52,275 bases of DNA. Origin: Acidobacteriota bacterium. GTDB taxonomy: Bacteria > Acidobacteriota > Thermoanaerobaculia > Multivoradales > JAGPDF01. The stretch's first letter is position 1, and every line of letters begins with the position of its first letter. The DNA lies in contig JACTMI010000023.1 in NCBI GenBank assembly GCA_014584695.1, positions 1 through 52,275 on the forward strand, written 5' to 3'. The notes under the pieces were generated by a model, which saw only the letters and a program-made list of their open reading frames with translations, made no database searches and was not told the DNA's origin. Shown piece after piece: positions 1 through 11,864 of this stretch. A program made the position numbers and the translations under genes.

Positions 1-228
1 TCGATTCTCCCAGAAGACACGGTAGCCCGTTGCTGCGGACCTTGCGCCAGAAAGCCAGACAACCGGAGCGATCTCGGTTGCCACCGCCTGGGGCTCGCTT
101 CTCTCGACACCCGAAGCGTCGATCGTCTGCGCGATCAGGGAGGCTACGAACGAGCTCTTGCCGACCTCCACCCCGCGGCTCAGCAGGCCCTCTACAAATA
201 CCGTTGCCGCAAGGGGGGTGAAACGTGA
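1..228 (+). CDS. C-terminal fragment of an unidentified protein, possibly SUMF1/FGE-like
   Basis: The frame beginning at base 1 is open and stops with TGA at 226-228, giving 75 residues of a protein that starts left of the window. Residues about 18-32 (RKPDNRSDLG followed by CHRLGLA) resemble the end of formylglycine-generating-enzyme/C-type-lectin folds, which typically close with an NR..N.GFR-like motif. The usual GFR reads GCHR here, and the preceding stretch is unusually cysteine-rich (four Cys between residues 11 and 27). A charged, probably helical tail of about 40 residues follows. Such folds are common in stand-alone enzymes and in targets of diversity-generating retroelements, but no reverse transcriptase or template repeat is present here. 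An open frame of this length is weak evidence by itself in GC-rich DNA, so both the reality of the gene and its family are tentative. Confidence 0.4.
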   Translation, partial: SILPEDTVARCCGPCARKPDNRSDLGCHRLGLASLDTRSVDRLRDQGGYERALADLHPAAQQALYKYRCRKGGET

Positions 229-432
229 CACTTGGCCCAAGAAATCTCTCGAATCACCGGCTGGGCGGGGTGACCGGTGCGGGGCGCCGGTGGGCGCTTT
301 CACGCTGGAAAAGCGTTCTGTTGAAGGGGGTGGTAGGCATTGCACCCGTGGCGAGTGCGAGACGCTCTCGCGCTCTCCATCGCCGCGCCCACCACCGGCG
401 TTCGGCCTTCCCCACCAGCGGCCGGCACCCGA

Positions 433-526
433 CCCCTTCTATGGAGCCTTTGCTTTGCTCTTCTCCTCTCGCAGGCCGACCCGCCGGTGGGCTCCTTCAC
501 GTTGAAGAAGCGTTCTGTTGAAGGGG
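433..526 (+). other. Predicted folded element, repeat unit 1
   Basis: A 13-position closing stem (433-445 with 514-526, one T-T mismatch) encloses about 68 bases. Just inside the 3' arm is a second hairpin, GCTCCTTC-ACGTT-GAAGAAGC (491-511), with seven pairs and one mismatch. The copies at 631-720 and 824-917 keep the same layout. No T-run follows, so this does not look like an intrinsic terminator. Strand is arbitrary. Confidence 0.5.
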
Positions 527-630
527 GTGGAGGGAGGTGCACCCGTGGCGAGTAAGAGACTTCCTCGCGCTCCCCCATCGCCGCGCTGACCGCCGACGTT
601 TCGCCTTCCCCCCCAGCGGCCGGCACTCGA

Positions 631-720
631 CCCCTTCTATGGAGCCTTTTGCTTTTCTTGTATCGCAGGCCGACCCGCCGGTGGGCTCCTTCACGTTGAA
701 AAAGCGTTCTGTTGAAGGGG
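631..720 (+). other. Predicted folded element, repeat unit 2
   Basis: Same layout as the element at 433-526: closing stem 631-643 with 708-720 and an internal hairpin 685-705. The internal hairpin is weaker here, with six pairs and two mismatches. Confidence 0.5.
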
Positions 721-823
721 GTGGCGGGAGGTGCACCCGTGGCGAGTGCGAGACGCTCTCGCGCTCCCCATCGCCGTGCCGACCGCCGACGTTTCGCCTT
801 CCCCACCAGCGGTCTGCACTCGA

Positions 824-917
824 CCCCTTCTATGGAGCCTTTGCTTTGCTCTTCTCCTCTCGCAGGCCGGCCCGCCGGTGGGCGCGCTCACGTTGAAAGA
901 GCGTTCTGTTGAAGGGG
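824..917 (+). other. Predicted folded element, repeat unit 3
   Basis: Closing stem 824-836 with 905-917. The internal hairpin uses a different arm sequence, CGCTC (885-889) with GAGCG (899-903), and is perfectly paired. The arms differ from the other units but can still pair. Confidence 0.5.
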
Positions 918-971
918 GTGGCGGGCCGTGCGGCCGCGGCGACCTCGGGGCGCTCGGGGCGCTCGCGGGGT

Positions 972-2105
972 TCAGGTGGAGGGCTGGGAGCGGCGGAGGA
1001 CTTGGGAGACTTCGATCAGCTCGCCGAAGTTCTCGAGCGTGATCATGCCCTTGAGGCCCTCGGCGTCGACCACCAGGATCGGTCCGGCGGGCCGGCTCTG
1101 CAGCAGGCGCAGGACCTCTTCGAGCGGCGTCTCCGGGTCGACGGCCACCGGTTCCCGGTCCATCAGGTCGAGCACCGCCATGTCGCGTCCCGGCCCCGCG
1201 AGGCCGGTCAGCAGGGCGCCCCGGTGCAGCACTCCGGCCACGCGCCCCCAGGCGTCGATCACCGGGAAGTCCTGCTGGTGCGTGGCGAGCAGCAGCTCGG
1301 CCGCCCGCTGCAGTGAATCCTGCGGCGCCAGGGACTCGAAGCGCGTCACCATGGCGGCTCGCGCCGTCAGGCCGCGCACGGCCGTCCGCCCGCGCTGGAA
1401 GGCCGCCTCCTGGCCGGCGCCCAGGAAGACGAAGATCGCGATCAGGAGCAGGACCGGTTTGATCGGTGGCGGGAAGAAGGCCAGCATGGCGAAGAGGATC
1501 GCCATCCCCTGCCCCACCGTCGCCGCGATCTGGGTCGCCCGGTCCTGGCCGATGGCGAGCGACAGCGTCGCGCGGAGGACGCGGCCGCCGTCCATCGGGA
1601 AGGCCGGGATCAGGTTGAAGAAGAACAGCACCAGGTTCGCGAACAGCAGCTGCCAGACCACCGGCGCGCCGGTGAGCAGCTCCTCCGCCGAGCCGGGCGC
1701 GCGCACCTGGCGGACGACCAGGTAACCGAACAGCAGCCCCGCGAGCACCAGATTGACCGCCGGCCCGGCGAGCGCGATCAGCAGCTCGGCCTTGCCCGAG
1801 GGAATCCGCTCGAGCCGCGCCACGCCGCCAATCGGGTAGAGCACGATCTCGCGCGTCTGGACGCCGAACCGGCGCGCCATGGTCGCGTGGCCGAGCTCGT
1901 GCAGGACCACGCAGCCGAACAGCAGCAGCAGGAAGACCACGCCGCCGAAGAAGCCGTCGCCCTGGCTGGCGGAGATGGCGCCGAACCAGAGCAACAGCAA
2001 GATGAAGGTGAAGTGGATCCGAATCGGGATGCCGCCCACCCGGATCGACCAGGAGCCGCCCCCTTCGGGCGGGGTGCGCGGACGGCGCTGCGCGGCGTCG
2101 TTCAT
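972..2105 (-). CDS. Site-2 protease family (M50) zinc metallopeptidase with CBS pair
   Basis: 377 residues. An intramembrane zinc protease of the M50B / sporulation SpoIVFB-like branch, predicted in the cytoplasmic membrane. The zinc motif HELGH is at residues 69-73 inside a hydrophobic segment, and the second conserved motif NLIPAFPMDGG is at 164-174, where the aspartate supplies the third metal ligand. Hydrophobic segments lie at about 31-47, 54-72, 107-132 and 150-170. The last ~125 residues form two CBS repeats (about 250-310 and 313-370), which in this family usually bind adenine nucleotides and gate activity. Its ATG lies about 20 bases after the M2 peptidase stop, so the two are probably co-transcribed. 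The physiological substrate cannot be told from the sequence. Confidence 0.93.
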   Translation of the reverse strand: MNDAAQRRPRTPPEGGGSWSIRVGGIPIRIHFTFILLLLWFGAISASQGDGFFGGVVFLLLLFGCVVLHELGHATMARRFGVQTREIVLYPIGGVARLERIPSGKAELLIALAGPAVNLVLAGLLFGYLVVRQVRAPGSAEELLTGAPVVWQLLFANLVLFFFNLIPAFPMDGGRVLRATLSLAIGQDRATQIAATVGQGMAILFAMLAFFPPPIKPVLLLIAIFVFLGAGQEAAFQRGRTAVRGLTARAAMVTRFESLAPQDSLQRAAELLLATHQQDFPVIDAWGRVAGVLHRGALLTGLAGPGRDMAVLDLMDREPVAVDPETPLEEVLRLLQSRPAGPILVVDAEGLKGMITLENFGELIEVSQVLRRSQPST

Positions 2106-4045: not shown

Positions 4046-5221
4046 TCAGTTGCGGCGCAGGAACCGCTCCAGCCGCTCGAGCCCGCGCGCCAGCTCGTGC
4101 CGCGAGCAGGCGAACGAGATGCGGACGTGGCGGTCGCTGCCGAACGCGGCGCCGGCCACCAGGGCCACGTGGGCCTCCTCCAGCAGGCGCTCCGCGAAGC
4201 TGGTCGAATCGGTGATGTCGCCGCGGAAGTGGGCGGAGACGTCGGGAAACGCGTAGAACGCGCCCTTGGGCGGCTGGCAGGTCACGCCGGGCAGCGCCGC
4301 GAGCGCGGGAACCAGCAGGTCGCGCCGGGCCTGGTACTCGGCCACCATCGCCTCGATGTCGCCCTCCGCCCCCGCGAGCGCCGCCAGGGCGCCGACCATA
4401 GCGAAGGAGGTGGGGTTCGAGGTGGCGTGGCCCTGGATCTCGGCGGCGGCGCGGACCAGCGGCGGCGGCCCGAGCAGGTAACCGACCCGCCAGCCGGTCA
4501 TCGCGTAGGTCTTCGAGAACGAGCCCACGAGCGCGATCGTCTCCGGATACGCGCTCGCCAGCGCGGCCGCGCTGGCCGCGGTGCCGCCGTCGTAGACGAA
4601 GCGCTCGTAGGTCTCGTCGGCGATGACCACGATCCCCCGCTCGGCGGCGGCGGCGACGATCGCGCGCAGATCCTCGGCGGCGATCACCCCGCCGGTCGGA
4701 TTGCAGGGACTGTTCAAGATGACCGCGCGCGTCCGCGCGGTGAAGGCCCCGACGATCTTCTCGGCGTGCACGGCGAAGCCGTCGGCGCCGTCGGTCGGCA
4801 CTTCGACCACCCGCGCCCCGGCGAACCGGATCTGCTCGGGGAAGCTCACCCAGGTGGGGGTGTGGAGGATGACCTCCTGCCCTTCCTCGAACAGCGCCAG
4901 CGCGATCTCGAACAGCGCCCCCTTGCCGCCGACGGAGACCAGCACCTGATCCGCCGTCCAGGGCGCGCCGTACTGGCGCGCGAAGCGCTCCGCCAGGGCG
5001 CGCCGGAGCGCCGGAATGCCGCTGGTGGGGGTGTACTTGGTGAAGCCGTCGGCGAGAGCCTGCCGGGCCGCCTCGACCGCGACGCCCGGGGAAGCGAAGT
5101 CCGGCTCGCCCGCGCCGAAGTCGACCACGTCGGCTCCCGAAGCCTTCAATTCGGCGGCCCGGCGCGACACTTTCAGTGTCGCCGACTCGCCGATTCGACT
5201 CATTCTGGCCGCTAGGTGCAT
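4046..5221 (-). CDS. Class I PLP-dependent aminotransferase (aspartate aminotransferase type)
   Basis: 391 residues. Transfers an amino group between an amino acid (probably aspartate) and a 2-oxo acid in the cytoplasm. The PLP lysine is K237 in SFSKTYAMTGWRVGY, with NPTGG at about 174-178 and ADETYERF just before it at 201-208 holding the cofactor-binding Asp and Tyr. The N-terminus (AARMSRI.ES.T) matches the family start, so I chose the ATG at 5221 over the ATG at 5230 and the internal one at 5203. No Shine-Dalgarno is visible, but TACCAT lies 7 bases upstream, compatible with a leaderless message. It is divergent from the thioredoxin-like gene across about 60 bases. Exact substrate is not certain. 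Confidence 0.92.
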   Translation of the reverse strand: MHLAARMSRIGESATLKVSRRAAELKASGADVVDFGAGEPDFASPGVAVEAARQALADGFTKYTPTSGIPALRRALAERFARQYGAPWTADQVLVSVGGKGALFEIALALFEEGQEVILHTPTWVSFPEQIRFAGARVVEVPTDGADGFAVHAEKIVGAFTARTRAVILNSPCNPTGGVIAAEDLRAIVAAAAERGIVVIADETYERFVYDGGTAASAAALASAYPETIALVGSFSKTYAMTGWRVGYLLGPPPLVRAAAEIQGHATSNPTSFAMVGALAALAGAEGDIEAMVAEYQARRDLLVPALAALPGVTCQPPKGAFYAFPDVSAHFRGDITDSTSFAERLLEEAHVALVAGAAFGSDRHVRISFACSRHELARGLERLERFLRRN

Positions 5222-6166: not shown

Positions 6167-8007
6167 GCCCGCGCACCAGTCGGCGCTGGGCTCGCGCCGC
6201 GCTCGTCCTCGCGCTGCTTTCCGGTGGGGCCGCGGCGCAGGAGACGGAGCGGGGGCCGCGCGAGAAAGCGGCGCTCGAGCTCGTCGGCAGTCGCACCGCA
6301 TACGAGCCGGGAAGCTCGGCTCGCCTGGCCGCGGTCGTCACCGTCGACTCGGGCTGGCACCTCCAGGCGCACGTTCCGACCTACGACTACCTGATTCCGA
6401 CGGTGCTGACCGTTCGTTCCCCCGCGGGTTGGGGCGAGGCGACGGTCGAGTACCCCGCGCCGATTCAGTACAAGTTCGCCTTCGCCGAGGAACCGCTCGC
6501 GGTCTACGAGGGGCGGATGATCGTCCCCTTCGAGCTGGCGGTACCGCCGGCTGCGACCGGCACCGCCACCCTCGAGGCGGAGTTGCGCTATCAGGCCTGC
6601 GACGACAAGTCCTGCCTGCCGCCGGTCAACGCGGTCGCCCGGCTCGAGCTCGCGATCGGGCTGGGTGGCGAGGCGCTCTCGGAGGCGATCTTCGCCGGCG
6701 GCGCGCGCCTCGAGGGCGTCGAGCGCGCTCCCGCCGCGACTGTGGCCGCCGCGCTGCCGCCGGCTTCGCTCGCGGGGATGCTGCTGCTCGGCCTGCTCGG
6801 CGGGTTGATCTTGAACGCCATGCCCTGCGTGCTGCCGATCCTCTCGCTCAAGGCGTTCGGTCTCGCGCAGGCCGCGGGGCAGTCGAAGGGCCAGGTGCGC
6901 GCCGGCGCGCTCGCCACCACGGCCGGCATCGTCCTCTCCTTCTGGGGCCTGGCCGGCGCGGCGATCGCCGCCAAGGGGGCGGGCGCGGCGGTCGGCTGGG
7001 GCATCCAGTTTCAGCAGCCGGGCTTCGTCGCCTTCCTCGCCGTCGTGGTGCTGTTTTTCTCACTCAACCTCTGGGGGCTGTTCGAGATCCAGCTGCCCAG
7101 CCGGCTGGTGACGGCGGCCGAGCGCAGCGGCGCGCGCGAGGGGCTGGGGGGCCACTTCGCCTCCGGCCTGTTCGCCACGCTGATGGCGACCCCCTGCTCC
7201 GCCCCTTTCCTCGGCACCGCTCTCTCGTTCGCGCTGGCGCAGAGCGGCGGCATCGTCTTCGCCATCTTCACCGCCGTCGGCCTCGGGCTCGCGCTCCCCT
7301 ACGTCGCCCTCGCCGTCGCGCCCGGAGCCGCTCGGCTGCTGCCGCGCCCCGGCGCCTGGATGGAGACGCTGCGCGGCGCGATGGGCTTTCTGCTCGCCGG
7401 CGCGGTGGTCTGGCTGCTCTATGTGCTTGCGGCGCAGATCGCGCCGGAGCGGCTAGCCACCTTCCAGGTCGCGCTGCTCGCCATCTCGCTCGGCCTCTGG
7501 CTCGCCCATCGCGCGCGCGCCGGCTCGGCAGGCAAGCGGCTGGGCTGGAGCGTCGCCCTCCTGCTCGCGGTCGCCTCGGTCGCGCTCGCCGCCCGCGCGC
7601 CGCGCGCCGAGGCCCGGGCCGCCGCCAACGTCGCCGGCCCATCGACGATCGCCTGGCTCCCCTTCGACCGGATCGAAGCCGAACGGCTCGCCGCCGAGGA
7701 AGGGCGCCTGGTCTTCCTCGACATCACCGCCGACTGGTGCGTCACCTGCAAGGTCAACGAGCGTCTGGTTCTGCACACCCCGGAGATGGTAGCGGCCTTC
7801 GCCGAGTACGAGGTGGTGCCGATGAAGGCCGACTGGACCAACCGCGACGACGGCATCGCGACCTTCCTCGCCGAGCACGGCCGCTACGGCATCCCCTTCT
7901 ACCTGCTCTACCGCCCCGGCCAGCCCCCCCACCTGTTCGGCGAGCTGATCTCGAAGCAGGGCGTAATCGACGTCCTCGCCGCCTCGGCCGGCAACGGCGC
8001 CACCTGA
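6163..8007 (+). CDS. dsbD: Thiol:disulfide interchange protein DsbD
   Basis: 614 residues. Carries electrons from cytoplasmic thioredoxin across the membrane to periplasmic thiol proteins. All three modules are present: an N-terminal immunoglobulin-like domain with Cys 146 and 151 (QACDDKSCLPP) after a short signal sequence; a polytopic domain with the paired membrane cysteines C222 (NAMPCVLP) and C345 (TPCSAP); and a C-terminal thioredoxin domain with C526-V-T-C529. The GTG at 6163 overlaps the preceding TGA by three bases; a GTG at 6157 is an alternative. Length and cysteine complement are those of a complete, functional DsbD. The gene downstream begins after a 128-bp gap with its own ribosome-binding site. 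Confidence 0.95.
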   Translation: MSPRTSRRWARAALVLALLSGGAAAQETERGPREKAALELVGSRTAYEPGSSARLAAVVTVDSGWHLQAHVPTYDYLIPTVLTVRSPAGWGEATVEYPAPIQYKFAFAEEPLAVYEGRMIVPFELAVPPAATGTATLEAELRYQACDDKSCLPPVNAVARLELAIGLGGEALSEAIFAGGARLEGVERAPAATVAAALPPASLAGMLLLGLLGGLILNAMPCVLPILSLKAFGLAQAAGQSKGQVRAGALATTAGIVLSFWGLAGAAIAAKGAGAAVGWGIQFQQPGFVAFLAVVVLFFSLNLWGLFEIQLPSRLVTAAERSGAREGLGGHFASGLFATLMATPCSAPFLGTALSFALAQSGGIVFAIFTAVGLGLALPYVALAVAPGAARLLPRPGAWMETLRGAMGFLLAGAVVWLLYVLAAQIAPERLATFQVALLAISLGLWLAHRARAGSAGKRLGWSVALLLAVASVALAARAPRAEARAAANVAGPSTIAWLPFDRIEAERLAAEEGRLVFLDITADWCVTCKVNERLVLHTPEMVAAFAEYEVVPMKADWTNRDDGIATFLAEHGRYGIPFYLLYRPGQPPHLFGELISKQGVIDVLAASAGNGAT

Positions 8008-8135
8008 CCCGCCCCGCCGGCGACGCGGCGCCCCCCCTTGCGCCGGACCTCTCGACGGTTCTAGGCTTTGTTTCAGCGTCGTATCTTCAGAAGAAGCTGA
8101 ATCGCCTTTTCGTCGCCTCACCCAGGAGGCCGTCC

Positions 8136-11100
8136 ATGCATCGCCCCGCCGCCGCCGGTCTGTCGATCGCGCTCGTCGCCACGCTCGCCCTGCCCATGGC
8201 CCTGGCTCCCGACGGCGCCTCGGCGTTTCCGGGTCAACCCACCTACGTGATCGTGCCGCTGGTGCCGGATACGGCCGAGGTCAAGGGCGCAGAGGACTTG
8301 CGACCCGCGGCTCCGCCCTACGCCCCGCCGGGGCTGGCTGGACCCTCCGCGCCGCTCGGGCAAGGCTACGTCGTCGAGTCGGAGCCGAACAACACGTTCG
8401 GCACGGCCGACCCGCTGGGCGGCTCGAACGTGGTCGCCTGGGGCAACATCTTCCCCAACGCCGACGTCGACTGGTGGTCTTTCACCGCCGCCGCCGGCGA
8501 CCGGGTCTACGCCGCGACGATGACCTCCTTCTCGGCCAACAGCTCGACCGACAGCCAGCTCCGCCTCTTTCAGAGCGATGGGACGACGCTGATCGAGTTC
8601 GACGACGACGACGGGACAATCGGCGGTTTGTCCTCGTCGATCGCCGGCGCCTCGATCCCGGCGGCCGGGACCTACTTCCTGGAGGTGCGGCACTTCAGCG
8701 CCACGAACCAGCTGCGCCCGTACGAGCTCCACTTCCGCCTCCAGAGCGGCGCGCCGACGCCCGAGGTCGAGCCGAACGACACCCCGGCCACCGCCAACCC
8801 GCTGCCGGCGAGCGGCTGGGTCAGCGGCACGCGCAATCCGGCCGCCGGAACCGAGCAGGACTGGTACAGCTTCACCGCCAATGCCGGCGACACCGTCTTC
8901 CTCTCCCTCGACCTCGATCCCGAACGCGACGGCGTGAGTTGGAACGGGCGGCTCGGTATCGCGCTCTTCGGAGACGCCACGAACCAGATCCTCGTCGTGG
9001 ACGACGGCGGCACGGTCGACGTGATCGACTCCGAAGCACTCTTCATGACGGTCAAGAACACCGGGACCTACTTCGCCTTCGTCGACTCGGCCTCCGCCGC
9101 GACCGGCGGCCCGACGGCGACCTACCACTTGAGCGTCTCGATCCACCCGGCGACGGACGAGGGGGTCAACTGCACGACTTACACCAGCACCGACGTGCCG
9201 GTGGCGATCGGGCCGGGAGCGGGGCTGGTCAGCTCGACGATCACGGTACCCGGCAACCCGCGGATCGCGGACCTCGACGTCGCGATCGTGCTGAACCATG
9301 CGCAGATGGCCGACCTCGACGTCAGCTTGCGCTCGCCGGCGGGCAACGTCAACAGCCTGTTCACGGATATCGGCGCCACCGCGGCCGGCGGCCAGACGCA
9401 GATGGACACCGTCTTCGATGACGAGGCCGCCATGCCACCGCTGTTCACCGTGCTCCGTGGCCCATCGTTCAAGCCGGAGCTCGCCTACCGGCTCTCCTGG
9501 TTCGACGGCGAGGACGCCGGCGGCACCTGGACGCTCGACCTCCGGGACGACGTCACGAACGCCAGCGGCGGTACCCTCACGGCGTGGAGCCTCCGCATCT
9601 GCGAGCCGCCACCGCCGCCCGCCTGCGCGCCCGGCTTCGCGCCGCTGGTGGTCTATTCGTCGGACTTCGAGGCCAACGACGGGGGGTTCACGCACTCCGG
9701 GGCGCAGGACGAGTGGGAGCGTGGATTGCCGAGCTTCGCGCCGATCACCACCTGCAACAGCGGCACGAACTGCTGGGTGACCGACCTCGACAATACGTAC
9801 AACGCGTCGAGCAACCAGGACCTGCTGTCGCCCAACATCAATCTGGCCGGCCTCTCGGCCCCGGTCGTCGTCCGCTGGGCGCAGCGCTACCAGATGGAGA
9901 ACGCGACGTTCGATCACTACTCGGTCGACATCCGGCAGGTCGGCCCGGTCAACCCGAGCCGGCTGTTCGAGTGGCTGGACGCCACCATGACGGATCTGGT
10001 CGGTAACCCCACCGTGACCCTCCAGCAGAGTGCCGGCTGGGGTCTGTTCGAGCGCCGGGCCGACGCTTACGCCGGGCAGAACGTCGAGCTCCTCTTCCAC
10101 CTCGACAGCGACACCACGGTGCAGCTCGCTGGCGTGGCGATCGACGATGTCTCGGTGACCGCCTGCCGGCCGCTCTCGGCGGACCTTTCGATCACCAAGA
10201 CCGACGGTAGCGCCACCGAGATCCCCGGCACGCCGGTGACCTACACCATCACCGCCTCGAATGCCGGACCCGACGGCGTCACCGGCGCGACCGTCGCCGA
10301 CACCTTCCCCGGCATCCTCTCCGGCTGCTCGACCACCTGCGTCGGCGCCGGCGGCGGCACCTGTACCGCCGGACCGTTCGCCGGCAACATCAACGACCTC
10401 GTCAACCTGCCAGCCGGCGGCTCGGTGACCTACACCTCGACCTGCAACATCTCCCCGGCCGCCACCGGCACGCTGGTCAACACCGCCACGGTCGCGAGCG
10501 CGGTCGCGGATCCGACGCCGGGCAACAACAGCGCCACCGACACCGACACGCTGACGCCGCAGGGCGACCTGTCGATCACCAAGACCGACGGCAGCGCCAC
10601 CGAGATCCCGGGCACGCCGGTCACCTACACCATCACCGCCGCGAACTCCGGGCCGTCGAACGCGGTCGGCGCGACCGTCGCCGACACCTTCCCCGGCATC
10701 CTCAGCGGCTGCTCGACCACCTGCGTCGGCGCCGGCGGCGGCACCTGCACCGCCGGACCCTTCGCCGGCAACATCAGCGACGTCGTCAACCTGCCGGCCG
10801 GCGGCTCGGTGACCTACACCTCGACCTGCAACATCTCCCCCGCCGCCACCGGCGCGCTGGTCAACACCGCCACCGTCACCGCCCCCGGCGGCTTCACCGA
10901 TACGGCGCCGGGCAACAACAGCGCCACCGACACCGACACGCTGACGCCGCAGGGCGACCTCGCGATCACCAAGACCGACGGCCTGGCCACCGCCACTGCC
11001 GGCCAGGCGATCGTCTACACCCTCGTCGCCTCGAACCCCGGCCCCTCGAACGTCACCGGCGCCACCGTCGCCGACACCTTCCCGGCGGCGCTCACCGGCA

Positions 11101-11864
11101 TCTCCTGGACCTGCGTCGGCGCCGGCGGCGGCACCTGCACCGCCGGTCCGGTCGGCGGCAACATCAACGACCTGGTCAACCTGCCGGCCGGTGGGTCCGC
11201 GACCTACACGGTCAACGCCACCATTTCCGCCGCCTTCTCGGGCACCCTCTCGAACACGGCGACGATCACCGCCCCCGGCGGCTTCACCGATCCCAACGGC
11301 GGCAACAACTCGGCCACCGACACCACCGAGGTCAGCGGCCTGGCGGCCGACGTCTCCGGCACCAAGACGGTCGGCGGCGACTTCCAGGTCGGCGGGCTCG
11401 TCACCTACACCATCGTGCTGACCAACGCCGGCCCCGGCATCCAGGGGGACAATCCGGGCGACGAATTCACCGACACCCTGCCCGCCACGCTGGCGCTGGT
11501 CTCGGCGGCCGCCAGCTCGGGCACCGTCGGCACGGCCGGCAACACGGTGACATGGAACGGCGCGATTCCGGTCGCCGGCTCCGTCACGATCGTCATCGAC
11601 GCCACGATCCTCCCCGCCGCCGCGGGGCAGACCGTCTCCAACCAGGGGACGATCTCCTACGACGGGGACGGCAACGGCACCAACGAGGCGACGCGGCTGA
11701 CCGACGACCCCGGCGTCGCCGGCGCCGACGATCCGACGCGGTTCTTCGTCAGCTTGTCGCTGATCGAGATCCCGACGCTCACCACCTGGGGCTTCGCGGC
11801 GTTCGCCGGGCTGCTCGCTCTGGTGGCGCTCGCGGGTCTGGCGCGTCGCCGCCGCGCCGCCTGA
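8136..11864 (+). CDS. Large exported DUF11-repeat protein with IPTL-CTERM sorting signal
   Basis: 1242 residues; the ATG is preceded by AGGAGG at 8124-8129, which fixes the start. Order: signal peptide (1-28); two bacterial pre-peptidase C-terminal (PPC) domains at about 78-205 and 205-335 (YVVESEPNNTFGTADPL; VEPNDTPATANPL); a proprotein-convertase P-like domain at about 345-489; a jelly-roll/MAM-like region at about 500-676; four DUF11 beta-sandwich repeats at about 682-808, 809-937, 938-1068 and 1069-1200; then IPTLTTWG near 1212, a hydrophobic helix and RRRR at the end. The tail is the IPTL-CTERM signal, processed in known cases by exosortase H. The protein is therefore probably sorted at the envelope and exposed or released. 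No catalytic motif is visible, so I infer an adhesive or structural role. Confidence 0.88.
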   Translation: MHRPAAAGLSIALVATLALPMALAPDGASAFPGQPTYVIVPLVPDTAEVKGAEDLRPAAPPYAPPGLAGPSAPLGQGYVVESEPNNTFGTADPLGGSNVVAWGNIFPNADVDWWSFTAAAGDRVYAATMTSFSANSSTDSQLRLFQSDGTTLIEFDDDDGTIGGLSSSIAGASIPAAGTYFLEVRHFSATNQLRPYELHFRLQSGAPTPEVEPNDTPATANPLPASGWVSGTRNPAAGTEQDWYSFTANAGDTVFLSLDLDPERDGVSWNGRLGIALFGDATNQILVVDDGGTVDVIDSEALFMTVKNTGTYFAFVDSASAATGGPTATYHLSVSIHPATDEGVNCTTYTSTDVPVAIGPGAGLVSSTITVPGNPRIADLDVAIVLNHAQMADLDVSLRSPAGNVNSLFTDIGATAAGGQTQMDTVFDDEAAMPPLFTVLRGPSFKPELAYRLSWFDGEDAGGTWTLDLRDDVTNASGGTLTAWSLRICEPPPPPACAPGFAPLVVYSSDFEANDGGFTHSGAQDEWERGLPSFAPITTCNSGTNCWVTDLDNTYNASSNQDLLSPNINLAGLSAPVVVRWAQRYQMENATFDHYSVDIRQVGPVNPSRLFEWLDATMTDLVGNPTVTLQQSAGWGLFERRADAYAGQNVELLFHLDSDTTVQLAGVAIDDVSVTACRPLSADLSITKTDGSATEIPGTPVTYTITASNAGPDGVTGATVADTFPGILSGCSTTCVGAGGGTCTAGPFAGNINDLVNLPAGGSVTYTSTCNISPAATGTLVNTATVASAVADPTPGNNSATDTDTLTPQGDLSITKTDGSATEIPGTPVTYTITAANSGPSNAVGATVADTFPGILSGCSTTCVGAGGGTCTAGPFAGNISDVVNLPAGGSVTYTSTCNISPAATGALVNTATVTAPGGFTDTAPGNNSATDTDTLTPQGDLAITKTDGLATATAGQAIVYTLVASNPGPSNVTGATVADTFPAALTGISWTCVGAGGGTCTAGPVGGNINDLVNLPAGGSATYTVNATISAAFSGTLSNTATITAPGGFTDPNGGNNSATDTTEVSGLAADVSGTKTVGGDFQVGGLVTYTIVLTNAGPGIQGDNPGDEFTDTLPATLALVSAAASSGTVGTAGNTVTWNGAIPVAGSVTIVIDATILPAAAGQTVSNQGTISYDGDGNGTNEATRLTDDPGVAGADDPTRFFVSLSLIEIPTLTTWGFAAFAGLLALVALAGLARRRRAA
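10181..11340 (+). repeat. Direct DNA repeats encoding three DUF11 domains
   Basis: Three in-frame copies of about 381-393 bp begin near 10181, 10562 and 10955, each opening with GACC-T/C-C/G-TCGATCACC-like sequence followed by AAGACCGACGG. Copies 1 and 2 are almost identical over long stretches; copy 3 is more diverged. Such identity favours gain or loss of domains by recombination. Confidence 0.85.

Follow-up and report, generated by a model that had tools for sequence, protein, structure and literature searches.

A tandem array in an Acidobacteriota genome probably belongs to a family of small palindromic repeats spread through that genome

A tandem array of ~195-bp units lies near the start of the window, the whole 52,275-nt stretch of Acidobacteriota DNA considered here. 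This array is most probably one locus of a family of dispersed small palindromic repeats of the MITE or Rickettsia-palindromic-element (RPE) kind. The remains of a mobile repeat family had been one of the options in the original prediction, which was made from the sequence alone, and this option is well supported by dozens of dispersed copies, element-free junctions, in-frame insertions and conservation confined to the ends. As far as tested, the family is previously undescribed: it is nearest to RPEs in behaviour and partly to BOX elements in modularity but is a member of neither, and no description of it was found in the open-access papers that were searched.

Results

Structure of the array in the window

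TRF detected a period of 197 bp at positions 285-925 (3.3 copies, 87% matches, score 962), confirming that the predicted ~195-bp tandem array is real. Based on TRF and BLASTN, the array extends over 285-942 of the forward strand and comprises three full units, as expected, namely unit 1 (285-469, long type), unit 2 (470-663) and unit 3 (664-860), with distances between the left (L) and right (R) ends of 117, 118 and 117, respectively. Two partial units had also been proposed, but only one is clear; this half unit 4 on the 3' side (861-942) contains the left part only, matching query positions 1-82 in BLASTN, and a pattern scan of the array found no R end after 824. The conserved blocks are L = AAAAGCGTTCTGTTGAAGGGGGTGG and R = CCCCTTCTATGGAGCTTT. 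The L end (left arm, B type) occupies 309-333 in unit 1 and is repeated at 506-530, 700-724 and 897-921, with block cores at 316-333, 513-530, 707-724 and 904-921; the R end (right arm, A type) occupies 433-450 and is repeated at 631-648 and 824-841, with cores at 433-447, 631-645 and 824-838, all on the forward strand. The pairing of the two blocks was correctly predicted, but the stem is longer than the 13 positions (12 paired) first described: it has ~15 core positions with 14 pairs, G-U included, and continues outward as AAAGC/GCTTT. The arms are also ~100 nt apart (117-118 nt from start to start) rather than about 80, and the units do not differ in their interior and spacer sequence as had been claimed, being 86-89% identical over their whole length. 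With such identity, the three window units are not independent evidence for the stem, for which the other loci are needed.

Downstream of the array, a gene for an M50 metalloprotease with CBS domains (972-2105, reverse strand) points its 3' end toward it. Upstream, an open frame truncated by the contig end (1-228, forward strand, frame 1) has its stop 56 nt before the array; it has no family match and may be the other, convergent neighbour. Elsewhere in the window, TRF found a 390-bp tandem repeat at 10182-11324 (2.9 copies, 84% matches) within the long open frame 6429-11864, which probably represents repeated protein domains.

Dispersed copies in the genome

A BLASTN search with unit 2, a check proposed along with the original prediction, returned 54 matches in its own genome, on a dozen contigs. 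The L pattern (15 nt, up to 2 mismatches) had 78 matches in the genome versus 13 for the reversed-pattern control, and the R pattern (14 nt, 1 mismatch) had 51 versus 0. Furthermore, a covariance model built solely from 13 short-type units at loci outside the window recovered all three window units (E 1e-7 to 3e-9) and gave 41 matches in the genome, a few of which are the opposite strand of a unit already counted. The tally amounts to some three dozen sites, with single ends and a few doubtful ones counted.

At dozens of these loci the L and R arms pair, that is, they are terminal inverted repeats. The usual element is ~90-150 bp long, B-type at the left end and A-type at the right; the two ends form an imperfect inverted repeat with G-U wobbles, flanked outward by A/G-rich sequence on the left and T/C-rich sequence on the right. 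L-R distances are mostly 70-118 and fall into two main classes, 70-73 and 116-118. At some loci (C1, C16 and C18 at 138 kb) several L-only modules in a row end with one R, and a few elements (C32 and C18 at 56 kb) are A-type at both ends. These elements are short and non-coding, with many dispersed copies and no gene of their own. An assembly artefact was rejected, as units within loci are 4-19% different and are spread over many contigs; some contigs end in elements, as expected for real repeats. No recent, near-identical copies were found at distant loci, so there is no sign of current activity. Two further observations concern the sequence in and around individual copies: a run of ~29 G in the A-A type element of G000 at 56.9 kb of C18 (locus L025, ~4938-4966), which could be real or an assembly error, and a 16-bp unit with an R-like end (CCTTTCCTTCTCTGGT) that is tandemly repeated downstream of elements on C9 and C32 (L098, L109).

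A nearly constant tandem period

Spacings between consecutive L ends fall at 77-80 bp in 12 cases and at 182-218 bp in 21 cases from 13 arrays, with one case at 131. The long period has a mean of 196 bp (sd 8 bp, 13 arrays), and the L-only arrays have one of 79 +/- 1 bp. This period is constant although the L-R distance is not, and the sequences of the arrays are largely unrelated. Units are 81-96% identical within a locus, while the median between loci is ~48%, with 75-88% for a few related locus pairs; this fits duplication in place combined with occasional copying between loci. Either a common ancestral unit or a mechanism that sets the length would account for the constant period.

Genomic positions and element-free junctions

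With genes called by an ad hoc caller, 9 of the 25 element-bearing gaps were convergent, compared with 24 of the 222 other gaps (Fisher p = 0.002). A hand count of elements beside co-directional genes gave four on the same strand and seven on the opposite one, indicating no bias. The same convergent excess is found for BOX, RUP, SPRITE and IS elements in pneumococcus, where it was interpreted as a mark of parasitic elements (PMC3049150). At two junctions, relatives have much shorter, element-free gaps. The nadC-lipA junction spans 746 bp here but only 75 bp in G002, and in G004 there is no gap (0 bp); a gap on C20 measures 611 bp versus 13 bp in G003, the orthology of the second neighbour being assumed. 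A target-site duplication was not definable at these empty junctions, which are too diverged for a base-level boundary. A possible direct repeat of 6 bp (AGAAGC) that brackets the trpC insert described below was not taken as such a duplication, since the element's own flank contains the same letters.

Copies in frame inside genes

In the trpC gene on C32, the frame stays open through the element and the Pfam IGPS match is kept. A right end lies in the same N-terminal linker of trpC in G001. In both G004 and G006, the 3' end of trpD is connected to the N-terminal linker of trpC by an inverted repeat whose ends are of the type found in those two genomes. At this trpD-trpC junction (L126, L125), the native 3' end of trpD (AAAAGCTTCCAGTAA) itself forms the left arm of the inverted repeat; in the sister genus an element arm therefore coincides with the gene's own stop region. 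The native coding sequence AACCCCTTCTATGCAGCTTTG in trpC of G003 (L124) resembles the R end, though G003 lacks the family, and this likeness may be a coincidence. In G002, a NuoE/NuoF-like fusion protein is 85 residues longer between its two domains, a stretch that includes the element and that G000 and G003 lack. At least two genes, trpC and the NuoE/F-like gene, hold in-frame elements. Three weaker cases are probable elements in variable linkers of HrpB and of an MrfA/Lhr-like helicase fusion in G002, and of a YfbK-like protein here. The right end is read as PSME in trpC and as PFN in G001 trpC and HrpB; at least two reading frames are in use, so that no conserved peptide is seen.

Range among relatives and co-varying ends

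The covariance model found the family in two other genomes of the genus, G001 and G002, the latter matching the MAG CTSoil_010 hit for hit, contig positions included. In G003, also of this genus, the model found no family and the end patterns were near control level; nor did the model find it in the remaining sample of the order. An end-pattern search did not find elements in the third genus of the host's taxonomic family. In the other sampled genomes of the phylum the A-end pattern did not exceed chance, and its matches in G011 were discarded as coding coincidences. An exact-pattern scan of genome contigs gave 17 matches, with a single true member by inspection (L077, in CTSoil_010).

The sister genus (G004 and G006) has a version of the element with different ends, terminating in AGCTTCCAGTAAAGG. 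Ends of this type numbered 31 versus 10 for the control in G004, clearly above control, and 18 versus 10 in G006; both genomes have three exact copies apiece. A reverse-complement partner (at least 10/12) was present downstream of the end in 11 of 27 cases in G002, 6 of 17 in G004 and 3 of 15 in G006, whereas the same test upstream gave 1/27, 0/17 and 0/15, respectively. The two ends change together, giving the pair types CCATAGAAGG/CCTTCTATGG, CTGTTGAAGG/CCTTCAACAG and CCAGTAAAGG/CCTTTACTGG. Pairing holds in 87% of cells across 28 arm pairs; the covariation score was 0.282 versus 0.182 for shuffled pairs (reached in 0 of 500) and 0.04-0.16 for slid versions, where some arms were chosen partly for complementarity and the shuffles ignore relatedness. 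As far as the aligned arms tell, compensatory changes between genera preserve the terminal stem. The interior can be aligned only within subfamilies, and conservation fades inside the stem; an unconserved interior with a kept terminal stem is as expected for terminal inverted repeats and not for a compact RNA. Of the things whose joint absence was to count against the original prediction, other copies in the genome, copies in relatives and covariation were found.

Search for the mover and other repeat families

None of 23 Y1 transposase loci in G000, G001, G002 and G004 had the studied ends as flanks, a search limited to the Y1 family, and identity with REP/RAYT was rejected on this basis. At many of the 23 loci the flanks instead contain repeats of the GGGGACAGGCACG or CGGCTGGCACCT type. 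GGGGACAGGCACG belongs to a second, TIRYT-like repeat family beside a Y1 transposase gene (L238, G000 C6 at 222 kb), and CGGCTGGCACCT to a third that flanks RAYT-like Y1 transposase genes (L247 on C30, L251 on C9). Copies of GGGGACAGGCACG also landed in and beside a main-family array on C18 (L026, ~6590-6640 and 7760-7810), and copies of CGGCTGGCACCT adjoin divergent main-family members on C10 and C17 (L034, L106, L107). The sequence TTCTGTTG resembles IS6-family ends, with no other support. Integron attC sites were provisionally rejected, as the ends have GTT..AAC-like motifs in the wrong order for attC and the arrays contain no cassettes. Also rejected were CRISPR, given that the repeats are too long and the spacers are themselves repeated within a locus, and an origin from phages or plasmids, with no BLASTN match in either collection and no true match among viral contigs.

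Discussion

A question raised by these findings is whether the elements serve the host. They could be useful 3' elements, acting as bidirectional terminators or stabilisers of mRNA 3' ends like some REP/BIME and SPRITE sequences, which spread as repeats and were kept for use. The convergent excess and the hairpin with A/G-rich left and T/C-rich right flanks would suit such a role, but mobile parasites show an equal excess (PMC3049150), copies lie inside open genes, and the same junctions occur in relatives without elements. A terminator scan of window positions 1-1100 also found none, a weak test that covers loops of 3-8 only. We consider this role unlikely. Still less credit is due to a structured non-coding RNA family expressed from tandem genes, which the original prediction had also suggested. 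Its attractions are the conserved terminal stem with G-U pairs, the covarying arms and the folding of some units, which beat shuffles with z-scores of -3.0 to -4.0. Across the seven sense-strand units folded, however, z-scores range from +0.4 to -4.0, and other units (+0.4, -1.0) are no better than shuffles; only the terminal stem is kept, the interior is unconserved between subfamilies, and Rfam covariance models gave no match to the elements. In addition, strand preference is absent, presence is patchy within one genus, and a scan found no sigma-70-like promoter, although the sigma-70 model is not informative for this phylum.

Arrays of protein-binding DNA that organise the nucleoid or chromosome, with spacing as the selected property, would explain the narrow periods of largely unrelated sequences and ends that co-vary between genera as binding sites would. 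The elements are not found in G003 or in the third genus of the host's taxonomic family, however, copies lie inside genes, and a single ancestral unit could equally have fixed the period, which makes this explanation highly improbable as well. A DNA hairpin recognised by a protein, the remaining option of the original prediction, would look the same in these analyses as the terminal repeats of a mobile element.

The best reading is a selfish-looking family with additional amplification in tandem. Working in trans on the ends, a transposase or recombinase would have moved the copies, which would survive where they do little harm, on the 3' sides of genes and in protein linkers; recombination or slippage between direct repeats would then have amplified them in place. 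The observed pattern needs no host function.

Several findings count against this best explanation: no transposase with matching flanks was found among the 23 Y1 loci, no target-site duplication was definable, distant loci share no near-identical copies, and random unequal exchange does not predict the narrow tandem period. Conceivably, although we regard it as rather doubtful, fixed-length units (~196 bp, or ~79 bp when L-only) are produced by an unrecognised dedicated enzyme that works on the paired ends, for example through a circular intermediate. To our knowledge, no such amplification mode is known for RPE, REP or BOX elements. If true, arrays of constant period and locus-specific sequence would form at many sites through such an enzyme.

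Like RPEs and the Wolbachia palindromic elements, the present elements are palindromic, ~100-150 bp long and dispersed, both intergenic and in frame in genes. Related species can have an RPE at a similar position in one and the same gene (PMC3767692, PMC10969869), and trpC gives a comparable case here. Unlike RPEs, however, this family has another sequence in another phylum and a G+C-rich host, uses at least two reading frames with no conserved peptide, has many copies in tandem arrays, and ends in AAAAGC.../...GCTTTT rather than carrying the CGTC end tag (PMC3733652). With MITEs such as Correia, RUP and ERIC it shares short, non-coding, multicopy elements with terminal inverted repeats and an enrichment between convergent genes, but the arms are imperfect copies of each other (B and A types), tandem arrays occur, and no target-site duplication or, at the 23 Y1 loci checked, parent insertion sequence was found. 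Pneumococcal BOX elements have a variable number of boxB between boxA and boxC (PMC3049150) and are similarly modular, as some loci here are several L-only modules with one closing R; no sequence relation is seen, however, and whole L-R units are also tandemly repeated here. REP/RAYT and TIR/TIRYT systems, described in part from Acidobacteria, where TIRYT repeats are known (PMC3733652), likewise consist of interspersed palindromes, at times in dimers or clusters, but the present family is unassociated with the genomes' Y1 transposase genes, and REPs are GTAG-tagged palindromes of 20-40 bp, whereas these elements are ~90-150 bp without a GTAG tag.

The constant tandem period across largely unrelated sequences is a concrete clue to the mechanism of amplification. 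Rickettsia and Wolbachia are the best-known hosts of in-frame palindromic selfish repeats. The separate family in Acidobacteriota, whose ends are specific to each genus and change in concert, offers a second system for asking by what route such elements spread when no transposase is visible and whether the copies inside genes alter the enzymes.
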